Source: Hydrogenophaga sp.
Lineage (GTDB): Bacteria > Pseudomonadota > Gammaproteobacteria > Burkholderiales > Burkholderiaceae_C
Length of the DNA: 34,046 bases
Direction: 5' to 3'
Assembly: GCA_030696525.1 (NCBI GenBank)
Contig: JAUYSB010000172.1
Location: forward strand, 1-34,046
In this document: one piece after another, positions 7,613 to 24,907 of the stretch
Numbering within the stretch: position 1 is the first letter of the stretch
Layout of the letters: each line of letters starts with the position of its first letter
The notes under the pieces: model-generated
Seen by the model: the letters and a program-made list of their open reading frames with translations, nothing else
What the model was told of the DNA's origin: nothing
The model's database searches: none
Program-made: the position numbers and the translations under genes

Positions 7613-7651
7613 ATATTCCCAGGCTGCGCTGGGCACGGTTCCGTTTCGGCG

Positions 7652-7750
7652 GGGCTGTGCGGGACTCTCCGAAAGGAGGGTGCCGGCTCCTTTGCCCGGT
7701 CGACCAACCTGCACAGTCCTGCCACCCTCTCTTGGTCGAGGGGGGGCAGG
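7652..7750 (+). promoter_or_regulatory. Candidate structured mRNA leader (three-way junction plus terminal hairpin)
   Basis: P1 GGGCUGUGC/GCACAGUCC (7652-7660/7711-7719), P2 CUCUCC-GAAA-GGAGGG (7665-7680), P3 CCGG/CCGG (7683-7686/7696-7699), then CCUGCC.CCCUC/GAGGG.GGCAGG (7718-7729/7738-7750), ending ahead of an SD-like CAGAGGAG. Confidence 0.6.
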
Positions 7751-20118: not shown

Positions 20119-20592
20119 TCATAGTCTTGGTGCTTGCCCATGATCGCAACCAGTGCAACCTGGTGATTCATCGTGTTCAGGTAGCACCCTCGCCAGGTGT
20201 GGCGTCCACAGCGCAGCATCGAACGACGCCCTGAACATGTTTTCCCAGAAGCCGAAGCTCAACTCAGCGATGACCTTTCCCGTGGATGTTGACGAAGGCT
20301 TGTTCCGAGCCTCGTCGAGGGCATCCCGTCCACGCTGCGGCAAGCTCAGATAGAAGCCCTGAGCCCATGGCCAATTGGTGCCATGCAGTGTCTTGAGAGC
20401 GTCGTCTACAGCGTTACGAATAACCACCTCGCAGACCGAGATAGGGGTCAGGAGCGCTGCGCCTAGTTGCCCGTTCCAGACGTACAACTCAAGGGCTTTG
20501 TCTAAGGAGGGTGGGTGGTCCTGCAGTGCATGGAGGTAAGTCAAAACTCGGGGCGGGGACAGGGCTTGTCGGACAGAGATAGAGTTAGCCAT
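20119..20592 (-). CDS. Abi family (Abi_2/AbiF-like HEPN) protein, probably C-terminally truncated
   Basis: LSPPRVLTYLHALQDHPPSLDKALELYVWNGQLGAALLTPISVCEVVIRNAVDDALKTLHGTNWPWAQGFY...GKVIAELSFGFWENMFRASFDAALWTPHLARVLP; then unrelated tail EHDESPGCTGCDHGQAPRL. Confidence 0.75.
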   Translation of the reverse strand: MANSISVRQALSPPRVLTYLHALQDHPPSLDKALELYVWNGQLGAALLTPISVCEVVIRNAVDDALKTLHGTNWPWAQGFYLSLPQRGRDALDEARNKPSSTSTGKVIAELSFGFWENMFRASFDAALWTPHLARVLPEHDESPGCTGCDHGQAPRL

Positions 20593-20635
20593 GCAGTGCT
20601 TTGCGCAATCGTTATTAACGGTGTATACTAAGTTC

Positions 20636-20715
20636 ACGAGCCGCTAGGGATCGGGACGCAAGTCTCCCTTAGGGTCAAATGAGTTGAAAAGGCCCGCGCA
20701 AGCGGGCCTTTTCTT
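20636..20715 (+). ncRNA. Candidate ~80-nt small RNA divergent from the Abi gene
   Basis: Promoter TTGCGC (20601-20606) - 17 bp - TATACT (20624-20629); hairpin GGGAC-GCAA-GUCUCC; terminator hairpin GGCCCGC-GCAA-GCGGGCC + TTTTCTTTT. Confidence 0.6.
20687..20715. terminator. Bidirectional intrinsic terminator
   Basis: AAAAGGCCCGC-GCAA-GCGGGCCTTTT, with U-tract potential on both strands; sits at the end of the minus-strand hip operon. Confidence 0.85.
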
Positions 20716-20876
20716 TTGTGTCGTCAATTCTCACTTCTCGTAGCGCTGGGCACCAAGGCAAAAGCTTCGCGCTGTGCGTGCATCGTCCAGTCTGCGGTGA
20801 TGCGAGCCATCGAGCGCAGGCCTACTAGGAACCGCACGTAGGCGCCCACCACCGAGGTCTGCCCCGCTGGTGGCCA

Positions 20877-21750: not shown

Positions 21751-23085
21751 TCAGGTCGCCCCGCCAGATTTGGGCAGTCGCTTGAGCAAAGACGCAATGG
21801 CCGGTGTGCCCTCGAAGTGTTGCAACAGTCTTGCCTTTTGGTCATCGAGAAGACCTGAGGCTCGGATCAGATCGGGCCAGGCCTCGTAGGCTTTGCGCAC
21901 CGTGTTCTTGATGAGCGCGTTCACCTGCGGCTCCAGCAGCCCTGGCACCGCGTTGCACAGCAACCGAACAACGCCGGGGGTGATTCGCGCGTGCTTGGGT
22001 GAGTCGGCCGTGAATTTCAAGGCGTGTCCCCTGCCTGTGAGGTACGCGGCATAGGCCACCACGTCATAGGCCGGGGACAACTCGGGGGTGGTGCCATCGC
22101 GGTAGAGAAGCCCGTAGTTTTTGAGGTGGCCATCGAAATTCCCCAGCAAGTCGTTGACCACCATCCGCCGCAGCATTTCGTGAACCGCTGGCACGCCAAG
22201 CCCCGGCGTTTGCATCAGCACGTTGAGGATGTTCGCGTAGCTGGCCCGCTCGTGGCTGTACTTCTCACCTGGTGCGACACCCAGAATTTGGGCGAAGTCT
22301 TCGCAGTGAAGGTGCCGCTTGCCATCCCGGTCAAATCGACGCACCGCCAGGAACAGCTTTCCGTCCCCCAGCACGTAGGGCTGGTCGGCCTCGATTCTCT
22401 CAAGCGGCGCCAGTGCCACCTCGCACACGTCCACACCCGCAACATCGGCCAGCCGCATGGACAGCTCTTCTACTTGGGGCAGCAGCGGGTACTCGACGGT
22501 TGGGAGCTTGGCGATGATGTGCACCCCCTTGGCATCCCTGGTTCGAGCAACGTAGCGCCCGCCTGGGGCCTGCACAAGGGAGAGTTTGGGCTGAACACCA
22601 GAGAGCGATGTGGCCTCGGGCAGCGCCACGGGTGTGACGGTGGGCTCCAGCGCGTCGCTGTTCTGGGTGACGATTCCCGCCACGCTCTGCGGGTCCAGAG
22701 GCGCCTGCTCGACGTAAACCGCACCGGGCAGATCGGTACCGCACACGCTAAGCAAACCAAAGTCGTCGCCCTTGTCCACCCCGCCGATCTGCTCCAGATG
22801 CCGGCGCAGCGGCCCCTCGGGCAACAGATTCCAGAAGAAGGCAGGGAGCCTTTCACCTTCACCGTTGAAGAAGGGCTGGGCCGCGTATTCGGCCAGGAAC
22901 ACGGCGCGCACCTGGGCATCCTGCACGCGAGCGTTGAGGGACAAGATTGGAGCTGCGGGATCGCTCCAGAAACCCTGATCCGGCACCAGACGCGTGATCG
23001 CACCTGCCCCGGTGCCGTACTGGAACAAAACCCCAACCAATCGCTTGCGAGGACCAAGGAACACGTTGACGGCGCGGTATCGCAT
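21751..23085 (-). CDS. hipA: HipA-family serine/threonine kinase toxin
   Basis: SLSGVQPKLSLV, FAVRRFDR-like LAVRRFDRDG, LLGNFDGHLKNYGLLYRDG, LSPAYDVVAYA. Confidence 0.93.
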   Translation of the reverse strand: MRYRAVNVFLGPRKRLVGVLFQYGTGAGAITRLVPDQGFWSDPAAPILSLNARVQDAQVRAVFLAEYAAQPFFNGEGERLPAFFWNLLPEGPLRRHLEQIGGVDKGDDFGLLSVCGTDLPGAVYVEQAPLDPQSVAGIVTQNSDALEPTVTPVALPEATSLSGVQPKLSLVQAPGGRYVARTRDAKGVHIIAKLPTVEYPLLPQVEELSMRLADVAGVDVCEVALAPLERIEADQPYVLGDGKLFLAVRRFDRDGKRHLHCEDFAQILGVAPGEKYSHERASYANILNVLMQTPGLGVPAVHEMLRRMVVNDLLGNFDGHLKNYGLLYRDGTTPELSPAYDVVAYAAYLTGRGHALKFTADSPKHARITPGVVRLLCNAVPGLLEPQVNALIKNTVRKAYEAWPDLIRASGLLDDQKARLLQHFEGTPAIASLLKRLPKSGGAT

Positions 23086-23130
23086 GGGATTGGGTCTCGT
23101 GTGGCTGCTGGTGAAAGACTGTGGCCGCGC

Positions 23131-23904
23131 TCAACAGCCGCAAGCCACGAGTGCGCACGCGTTGGAGGATGGGCGTGGGTACATCAGGCACGGGGCCGTC
23201 ACAGCCTCAAGGTAGCCGTTCTGTAGGTAGTCCACATAGTCCTTGACCAGGGCCAGCACCTCTTGTCCTGTTTCAGGGCTCGCCCAACCTTCATGCGGGT
23301 CATCATCCTGCAGATCTGGGCAGAAAACCTCGTACCAGCCACCCCCATCTACTGTCTCGATGACGATGCCGTGTCTGTGCGCAAGGGATTTTGCTTTGGC
23401 CATGGTCTGGGCGTTTCGCCGGATTTCGTGGGCCACCGTATCGACTGGAGCCTGCTGCGGCAATGCGTCAACGAAGAGACACGCCTCAACAACCTCATGT
23501 GGATGCGGCAACTCATCGAGCGATACCGCGCGATGGGTCAAAGAACACTGGTACCGCTCGCCCAGCAGGGTGCCGTAGTGCCGCCCAAAAACAATGATGG
23601 CATGCCGGGTGGCGAACAGATCGGCATTGCGCTGAACCCACTGCCCAGCACTCACAAGCCCCGTGCCATCGTCCCTGAAGTTGCGAAACGTCAGCGAGCA
23701 CCCAACAGAGGTGAGGGCTTCCCATAGGTGCCTTTCACTGACCCCTTTGATGCTGCGATCGCCACTGACCCCACGGATGATCCGAGCCGCGTGGTCCGTG
23801 CTGATGCCAAGCACCGTCGCCATGGCCGTAGGCCCACAAAAGCTGTTCTTGCCCGTTACCGGGTGAAGTTGTGGTGACATGGGAAGGCTGCAGGACTGCT
23901 TCAC
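23131..23904 (-). CDS. Predicted papain/C39-like cysteine peptidase-fold protein
   Basis: NSFCGPTAMATVLGISTDHAARIIR (Cys-Gly-Pro) and downstream HAIIVFGRHYGTLLG; GTG start overlaps the hipB TGA (GTGA). Confidence 0.55.
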   Translation of the reverse strand: MKQSCSLPMSPQLHPVTGKNSFCGPTAMATVLGISTDHAARIIRGVSGDRSIKGVSERHLWEALTSVGCSLTFRNFRDDGTGLVSAGQWVQRNADLFATRHAIIVFGRHYGTLLGERYQCSLTHRAVSLDELPHPHEVVEACLFVDALPQQAPVDTVAHEIRRNAQTMAKAKSLAHRHGIVIETVDGGGWYEVFCPDLQDDDPHEGWASPETGQEVLALVKDYVDYLQNGYLEAVTAPCLMYPRPSSNACALVACGC

Positions 23905-24227
23905 CGATGGTGCTCGCTTGCCCCGCTTTTGGTCAGGAAGGTAGCTCTGGCCTGGACGAGCCGCTCCACATCGGACACCACGGTGCGCGGCGCCTGCGGG
24001 GGAGCTGCAAGCGATTGGGCGGCATCCTTGGGCAGCAGCACCAGCTCAAGCCCCAGCTCGGAGGCCAGGGCCATCGCGTTGGTGAGCCTGGGCGCAGTCT
24101 CCCCGGCCAGAATCTGGCGCACCGCCTGCGAGGTCAGCCCCGTGCGCTGTGCCAGGGCGTTGGCGGTCAGCTTGCGGGTTTTCTTGGCGTTGGTGAGGGC
24201 AGCGGCGAACTCAGCAAGGGTGCGCAT
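23901..24227 (-). CDS. hipB: HipB-like XRE antitoxin
   Basis: MRTLAEFAAALTNAKKTRKLTANALAQRTGLTSQAVRQILAGETAPRLTNAMALASELGLELVLLPK. Confidence 0.85.
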   Translation of the reverse strand: MRTLAEFAAALTNAKKTRKLTANALAQRTGLTSQAVRQILAGETAPRLTNAMALASELGLELVLLPKDAAQSLAAPPQAPRTVVSDVERLVQARATFLTKSGASEHHR

Positions 24228-24247
24228 GATAAGTAAACTGTCGTTTT

Positions 24248-24284
24248 CGTCGAAGACGCATGTTGAGTATTGTAGGCTTCGACG
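24248..24284. promoter_or_regulatory. Candidate operator upstream of hipB
   Basis: CGTCGAAG (24248-24255) / CTTCGACG (24277-24284), perfect 8-bp arms, nested within TAAACT...AGTTTA. Confidence 0.5.
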
Positions 24285-24375
24285 GCATGAATGGAATAGT
24301 TTAGTGTTGTTTTTCCCAAAAAAGCCACCTAACCTAATCTGGTGGTGTCGGTCGCATATACTGACAACTGAAACA

Positions 24376-24460
24376 TTGGCATACCTGACCGAAAGGCAGG
24401 GACGCAAAGCCACAGGCCCTCAGTCAAGCGCACGCGCTTGACCGGGTAGCTGGGTTGCCT
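24376..24460 (+). promoter_or_regulatory. Cyclic di-GMP-I (GEMM-I) riboswitch
   Basis: UUGGCAUACCUGACCGAAAGGCAGGGACGCAAAGCCACAGGCC...GUCAAGCG-CACG-CGCUUGAC-CGGGUAGCUGGGUUGCC: GNRA-capped P2, invariant GGGACGCAAAGCC, extended P3, GGGUAGC.GGGUUGCC; P1 GGCA/UGCC. Confidence 0.9.
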
Positions 24461-24553
24461 GACCTACACGGGTCAGCTTGGAGTCCTTGCGTCTCGCCCT
24501 GCGTCATGTGCCAGTGGGTCACCCATCGTGCACAAAACCCACGGACCGATTCC

Positions 24554-24907
24554 ATGACGACTCCAACGCTCCGCCTCAGCGCTTTGACCCTTCTCCTGGC
24601 CATCAGCGCCACGCTTGCAGGCTGCAACCAGCCCCAAGCGGCTCAAGCCGCCCAAGCCGCTGCTGCGCCAGCTCTGCCAGCCATCGATCAAGCCAACCTC
24701 TGCGAGGTCAAGGGTTGGCAGCATGACGTGGTGGCTCAGTCCTGCAAACCGGGTCAGAAGGTGATCTACCTGCCCGACTCCTGGGGCAATGAGCAATTGC
24801 CGGTGATTTTTGCGGCCGTCAACTGCGACATGCGGTACTCGGTCACCATCACCAAGGGTGCCGTGGCATGCATCTACTCCCCGATGACCCCTGCAAAGAC
24901 CTCGTGA
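24554..24907 (+). CDS. Small lipoprotein
   Basis: MTTPTLRLSALTLLLAISATLAGC lipobox (LAGC); downstream of the riboswitch. Confidence 0.75.
   Translation: MTTPTLRLSALTLLLAISATLAGCNQPQAAQAAQAAAAPALPAIDQANLCEVKGWQHDVVAQSCKPGQKVIYLPDSWGNEQLPVIFAAVNCDMRYSVTITKGAVACIYSPMTPAKTS

Follow-up and report, generated by a model that had tools for sequence, protein, structure and literature searches.

A candidate RNA antitoxin family encoded head-to-head with AbiF-like HEPN ribonuclease genes, with a copy beside a truncated toxin gene in Hydrogenophaga sp.

Abortive infection proteins of the AbiF type are HEPN proteins for which partner RNAs have been described. One such system, AbiF/AbiFr (PbAbiF-ncRNA, PDB 8VZ6), was reported by Zilberzwige-Tal et al., as cited in PMC12373285 and PMC12737573. 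In C. difficile phi027 and phiC2, binding of the HEPN toxin AbiFCd by the RNA antitoxin RCd22 has been experimentally established, and RCd22 is encoded upstream of abiF on the same strand and is partly co-transcribed with it (PMC12373285). Furthermore, the HEPN domains of Cas13 have been phylogenetically linked to AbiD/F (PMC12165695). AbiF-type HEPN RNases are proposed ancestors of Cas13, which raises the question by which path their RNA partner passed from inhibitor to guide.

We analysed a stretch of 34,046 nucleotides from Hydrogenophaga sp. (contig JAUYSB010000172.1), hereafter the window, in which a preliminary description made from the letters alone had placed an Abi/HEPN-like gene and a divergent small RNA. 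The features of the locus are the following.

20119 to 20592, minus strand: Abi-like ORF of 157 aa, with its ATG at 20592 and its stop at 20119
20180 to 20592, minus strand: 5' part (residues 1 to about 137) of a truncated AbiF-like HEPN ribonuclease gene, from identity to the Malikia spinosa contig L031
20067 to 20186, minus strand: 3' end of a ykgJ-family (cysteine cluster) gene in another frame, joined to the abi fragment, from tblastn
20601 to 20629, plus strand: predicted small RNA promoter, TTGCGC (weak -35, 20601-20606), 17-nt spacer and TATACT (-10, 20624-20629), from the sequence
20636 to 20718, plus strand: predicted small RNA of about 83 nt, with 5' and 3' ends inferred, from the fold and identity to Malikia spinosa
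20638 to 20682, plus strand: conserved two-helix core (P1, internal loop, P2 hairpin with a GCAA loop, tail), from a match to covariance model R2
20686 to 20713, plus strand: intrinsic terminator GAAAAGGCCCGC-GCAA-GCGGGCCTTTTC, 12 bp and G+C-rich, then a T-rich tail, from a terminator scan

Elsewhere in the window, a c-di-GMP-I riboswitch (RF01051, 56.7 bits) lies at 24368-24462 on the plus strand, at the start of ORF 24455-24907, and a C4 antisense RNA (RF01695, 51.8 bits) at 7642-7729 on the plus strand suggests prophage sequence. On the minus strand, a HipA-like kinase ORF (21751-24413, 153.9 bits) and an HTH ORF located farther upstream likely form a second toxin-antitoxin module.

The abi gene of the window is broken. 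Malikia spinosa contig L031 carries an intact HEPN relative of about 214 aa with the RNA head-to-head; the window fragment is about 60-65% identical to it across residues 1 to about 137, and the homology of full-length relatives to the window ORF ends near residue 137. Past this point the ORF reads ykgJ-family sequence out of frame, up to the stop at 20119. The junction lies at about 20179-20196, and the ykgJ part encodes a YkgJ-family C-terminus (60.6% over 33 aa to Acidovorax temperans pEP1, tblastn, E 5e-9). The end of the window protein is foreign sequence and the HEPN catalytic motif R-(N/H/D)-x3-H is absent from it; lacking R-N-x3-H, the window gene therefore encodes no active toxin. The minus-strand Abi-like frame of the preliminary description is thus present, although it is not an intact gene. 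The window protein gave no match to Pfam PF07751 (Abi_2), and a partial match, restricted to residues 34-78, to PADLOC PD-T4-5 (PDLC04038, 29.2 bits). A second abi copy was not found in the assembly of the window, which is 80% complete.

The intact homologues keep the catalytic motif, in the form R-N-R-I-A-H-H, in nearly all cases with few exceptions. Their PF07751 scores straddle the gathering threshold of 25.6, with 21.5 for the Malikia protein, 27.2 for L187, 31.1 for L032 and 41.6 for L055. The AlphaFold model of the Malikia protein has a pLDDT of 95.2, and its sole confident PDB match by Foldseek is 8vz6, the PbAbiF dimer with its ncRNA (probability 1.00, TM 0.60, with a modest E of 0.0095); this comparison concerns the intact Malikia model. 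The relationship is found by fold comparison alone, since a sequence profile searched against the PDB retrieved no relative, 8VZ6 included, and its ribosomal S3a matches are noise. PD-T4-5, a family of phage-defence proteins, is the best defence-family match in PADLOC for the intact homologues (58.6 bits on the Malikia protein, partial) as well as for the window fragment, a weak assignment with a profile 309 positions long against about 215-240 aa for the homologues. To our knowledge no RNA accompanies PD-T4-5.

On the plus strand, the sequence and spacing of the TTGCGC-17-TATACT promoter are as first described, but its strength does not rise above chance: it has 8 of 12 consensus matches, a score equalled by 25% of shuffles, and it is absent from the list of a stricter promoter scan. 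With such a promoter the RNA could be doubted from the window alone. The promoter is nevertheless credible because the distance of 8 nt from its -10 to the core agrees with most relatives, where the -10 generally lies 6-12 nt ahead of the core. The compact structured RNA with its GGGAC-GCAA-GUCUC hairpin is there as described, and so is the strong terminator (20686-20713), whose G+C-rich stem has 12 bp. For the 83-nt RNA the predicted folding energy is -40.8 kcal/mol (z -3.9), a value that none of 200 shuffles equals; this z is partly owed to the terminator, and comparative evidence therefore weighs more. The idea of two promoters with overlapping -10 regions found no support: in the abi direction nothing in the window scores better than shuffles do, and over 22 loci this direction averages 7.3 matches against 7.5 in shuffles, which amounts to nothing.

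The relatives settle the matter: the RNA unit of the window, with its -10, two-helix core and terminator, is real. Indeed, 71 of 83 bases of the RNA (86%) are identical between the window and Malikia spinosa, while identity on the flanks is about 69% for the coding sequence of abi and 55% for the promoter; the terminator is also present in Malikia spinosa. A blastn search of the RNA against relatives and plasmids returned matches to terminator hairpins only.

The divergent RNA element is shared by the intact relatives L035, L036 and L037 (41-46% identical to the Malikia protein). It also accompanies plasmid relatives from Marinobacter, Pantoea, Burkholderia, E. coli, Xanthomonas, Zymomonas, Pseudoalteromonas, Pseudomonas, Psychrobacter, Novosphingobium, Rhizobium, Roseovarius, Sphingobium and Rhodococcus. 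The RNA thus stands beside homologues in alpha-, beta- and gammaproteobacteria as well as Rhodococcus, usually with a strong sigma-70-like promoter: predicted RNA-direction promoters at homologous loci have a mean of 9.7 matches out of 12, where shuffled sequences have 6.8. Divergent promoter-plus-terminator units were detected upstream of 22 of 58 abi homologues versus 7 of 569 control ORFs, by a scan so strict that many units visible by eye were missed; same-strand units upstream of abi homologues numbered 0 of 58. The gap from the RNA core to the abi start has a median of 34 nt. As to gene neighbourhood, the abi genes of L066, L068, L070 and L073 adjoin parA on IncP and Xanthomonas plasmids, including P. 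aeruginosa pMATVIM-7, and an abi homologue adjoins a cas9-like gene on a Marinibacterium plasmid (L186:2291-3618).

Two covariance models were built, both with the window and Malikia sequences left out. The first, R1 (13 sequences), matched upstream of abi on the opposite strand at homologous loci, and found nothing better than E 2.3 on 704 kb of control contigs. It scored the window RNA at 7.2 bits, behind six unrelated places, and R2 (22 sequences) was therefore built with intermediate members added. Over the whole 34-kb window R2 ranks 20638-20682 on the plus strand first (15.3 bits, with an E of 0.07 that is weak alone), and on the Malikia contig the site homologous to the window core also ranks first (17.8 bits, E 0.003). 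These E-values are modest, and it is the position of the window RNA and the Malikia intermediate that would tie it to the family.

In the R2 alignment (A7), 92% of cells pair, and changes at both partners are seen for 8 of the 10 pairs. Double-change cells number 36, where shuffles give 12 +/- 3, and sliding the partners makes the signal collapse; A7 is fitted to the structure of the model, and the slid and shuffled controls leave some shared ancestry. The same picture emerges from A6, an alignment made independently with MAFFT. In viral contigs the pattern GGGCGCAAGYCTCCC occurred in 105 stretches; among the 80 loci examined, abi homologues were absent and R1 gave no match better than E 2.3, and the stretches were therefore taken as chance. 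The pattern GGTCAAATGAGTTGA occurred in 44 stretches of viral contigs. As judged from sequence comparison, the RNA forms a previously unmodelled family, predicted to be structurally conserved and lying head-to-head with AbiF-like toxin genes in many bacteria and plasmids. Conservation of the RNA next to abi homologues, a point on which the preliminary description had staked its proposal, was thus found, with covariation of the RNA beside intact homologues.

That description had also named the Rfam abiF model as a check. RF03085 gave no above-threshold match in the window, at the RNA or elsewhere, or at the homologous abi loci, while in the positive control phiC2 a match on the strand of abiF reaches threshold (37.6 bits); Rfam abiF was rejected for the window RNA. 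Weak sub-threshold Rfam matches (STnc320, CRISPR-DR28, leaders) merely resemble terminators. At L222:1501-1537 (G742:C17) there is a true Rfam abiF RNA (56.3 bits); another, weak copy lies about 100 nt away, and no abi gene was seen within the 3 kb listed.

Some relatives carry other divergent hairpins upstream of abi. In Rhodobacterales and viral-contig relatives (L032, L190, L201, L056) the hairpin is differently shaped, of the type CCCCGCGA-CAGCC-GAAA-GGUCC-UCGCGGGG. In the more distant relatives L038, L042, L043, L055, L060, L191, L203, L206, L213, L214 and L216 abiF-like hairpins are seen, by eye only, with a CCUCU segment, a closing stem and often then a U-run; RF03085 gave no above-threshold match to these CCUCU hairpins where tested.

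When R2 was run over 33 and then 399 genomes, it matched the RNA beside abi and, in addition, three copies with no abi found nearby. One (G211:C1:63703-63748, L275:1501-1546) has 53 nt identical to the plasmid type of L037, no abi in 7 kb and no recognised terminator of its own. Another (G335:C1:4011993, L289:1501-1547) has a terminator and no abi in about 1.5 kb on each side, and the last is a weak copy (G1003:C19:326908, L286 near 2409, E 0.035). Such toxin-less copies, one of them sharing 53 nt with a plasmid type, suggest an antidote that acts in trans. The window resembles them functionally, the RNA being kept and the toxin gone.

In our view the RNA probably serves AbiF-type HEPN RNases as a type-III-like antitoxin, in a divergent version that is invisible to Rfam and was left in the window beside a dead toxin. 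Computation shows the conservation and covariation of the RNA, its divergent linkage, the promoter asymmetry, the AbiF fold and, in the window, the loss of the toxin. According to this reading, the RNA belongs to a family of structured small RNAs whose genes lie head-to-head with those of short AbiF-like HEPN ribonucleases (about 215-240 aa). If AbiF/AbiFr and RCd22/AbiFCd are a guide, a strong promoter of its own would supply the RNA in excess, and the RNA would bind the HEPN dimer and block the RNase centre; once the RNA is lost, for instance with the plasmid or when a phage takes over, the toxin would be freed. In the window, recombination with a ykgJ-family gene has cut the toxin gene and removed the catalytic motif; the RNA alone is therefore likely functional, either as an orphaned antitoxin or as a relic of recent origin. 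Equally, a functional RNA next to a dead toxin could be a remnant in decay. The divergent RNA/HEPN pair first proposed is supported for the family, through an RNA conserved and covarying beside intact homologues and the PbAbiF-ncRNA fold, and not as a working pair in the window, where the toxin is truncated.

Other roles for the RNA have to be weighed. The window RNA does not overlap the abi ORF. The short gap between core and abi, with no abi promoter visible in it, leaves room for an abi leader that runs antisense through the RNA gene, and the RNA could then be a type-I-like regulator silencing, by leader pairing, an abi mRNA that starts beyond the RNA gene. We consider this unlikely, since antisense pairing needs no conserved, covarying P1 and P2 helices or loops across classes, RNA copies occur with no abi found nearby, and the protein is folded like a toxin that RNA neutralises. 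As a cofactor or guide, the RNA would activate or direct the HEPN nuclease as crRNA does for Cas13. The link of Cas13 HEPN domains to AbiD/F (PMC12165695) and the form of the RNA, a short hairpin with a single-stranded tail, agree with such a role, but there is no variable guide-like segment beside the core and there are no repeats, and the published AbiF RNAs neutralise (PMC12373285), which makes it very improbable.

An equally slim chance is given to divergent transcription as such repressing abi, with a -35 that can overlap the abi start and the RNA as an incidental product: a strong promoter does adjoin the abi start, but the covariation, the conserved core and the abi-less copies would be left unexplained. 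A dead toxin gene, a weak promoter and a modest R2 score are what one would expect if the window hairpin were a chance structure or a non-functional intergenic terminator beside a pseudogene. We judge this the least credible reading, because identity to the Malikia RNA is 86% and lower on both sides, the predicted fold is retained, and the top R2 match in 34 kb falls in the expected place and on the expected strand.

Starting from the RNA antitoxin as the preferred reading, a wider and tentative proposal, which we find plausible without giving it our favour, is that of a large Rfam-invisible family of divergent RNA antitoxins with short AbiF-like HEPN RNases in Proteobacteria and some Actinobacteria. 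Its RNAs would also spread or persist toxin-less, as stand-alone antidotes against addiction or abortive infection by toxin-bearing plasmids, and the window would be an orphan in the making. Transcription, binding, neutralisation and the antidote role of toxin-less copies are what we infer here, and the toxin-less copies offer a direct test of trans-acting RNA antidotes. Moreover, the divergent architecture and the many plasmid copies (P. aeruginosa, E. coli, Xanthomonas, Zymomonas) provide testable comparative material, and annotators could find toxin/antidote pairs missed by both Pfam and Rfam. Divergent members may already be known to the authors of AbiF/AbiFr.

Type III antitoxin RNAs of the ToxIN kind consist of tandem repeats; unlike them, the RNA region of the window or of Malikia yielded no direct repeats. 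AbiF/AbiFr has in common with the intact relatives a HEPN protein of the same predicted fold with the R-N-x3-H motif kept, and with the loci described here a small structured RNA; it differs in that the RNA here has another architecture and a divergent gene, and that the toxin is truncated in the window. AbiFCd/RCd22 likewise combines an Abi_2/HEPN protein with an adjacent RNA of about 100 nt that has its own promoter and terminator, but RCd22 contains two abiF motifs, one of which reaches the Rfam model, whereas the RNA here is divergent, single-core and unmatched by RF03085. Finally, the RF03085 abiF RNA and the new family are both short hairpin RNAs associated with Abi_2 genes, and what sets the new family apart from the RF03085 consensus is its two-helix core with UCCC and GACANANGA segments.
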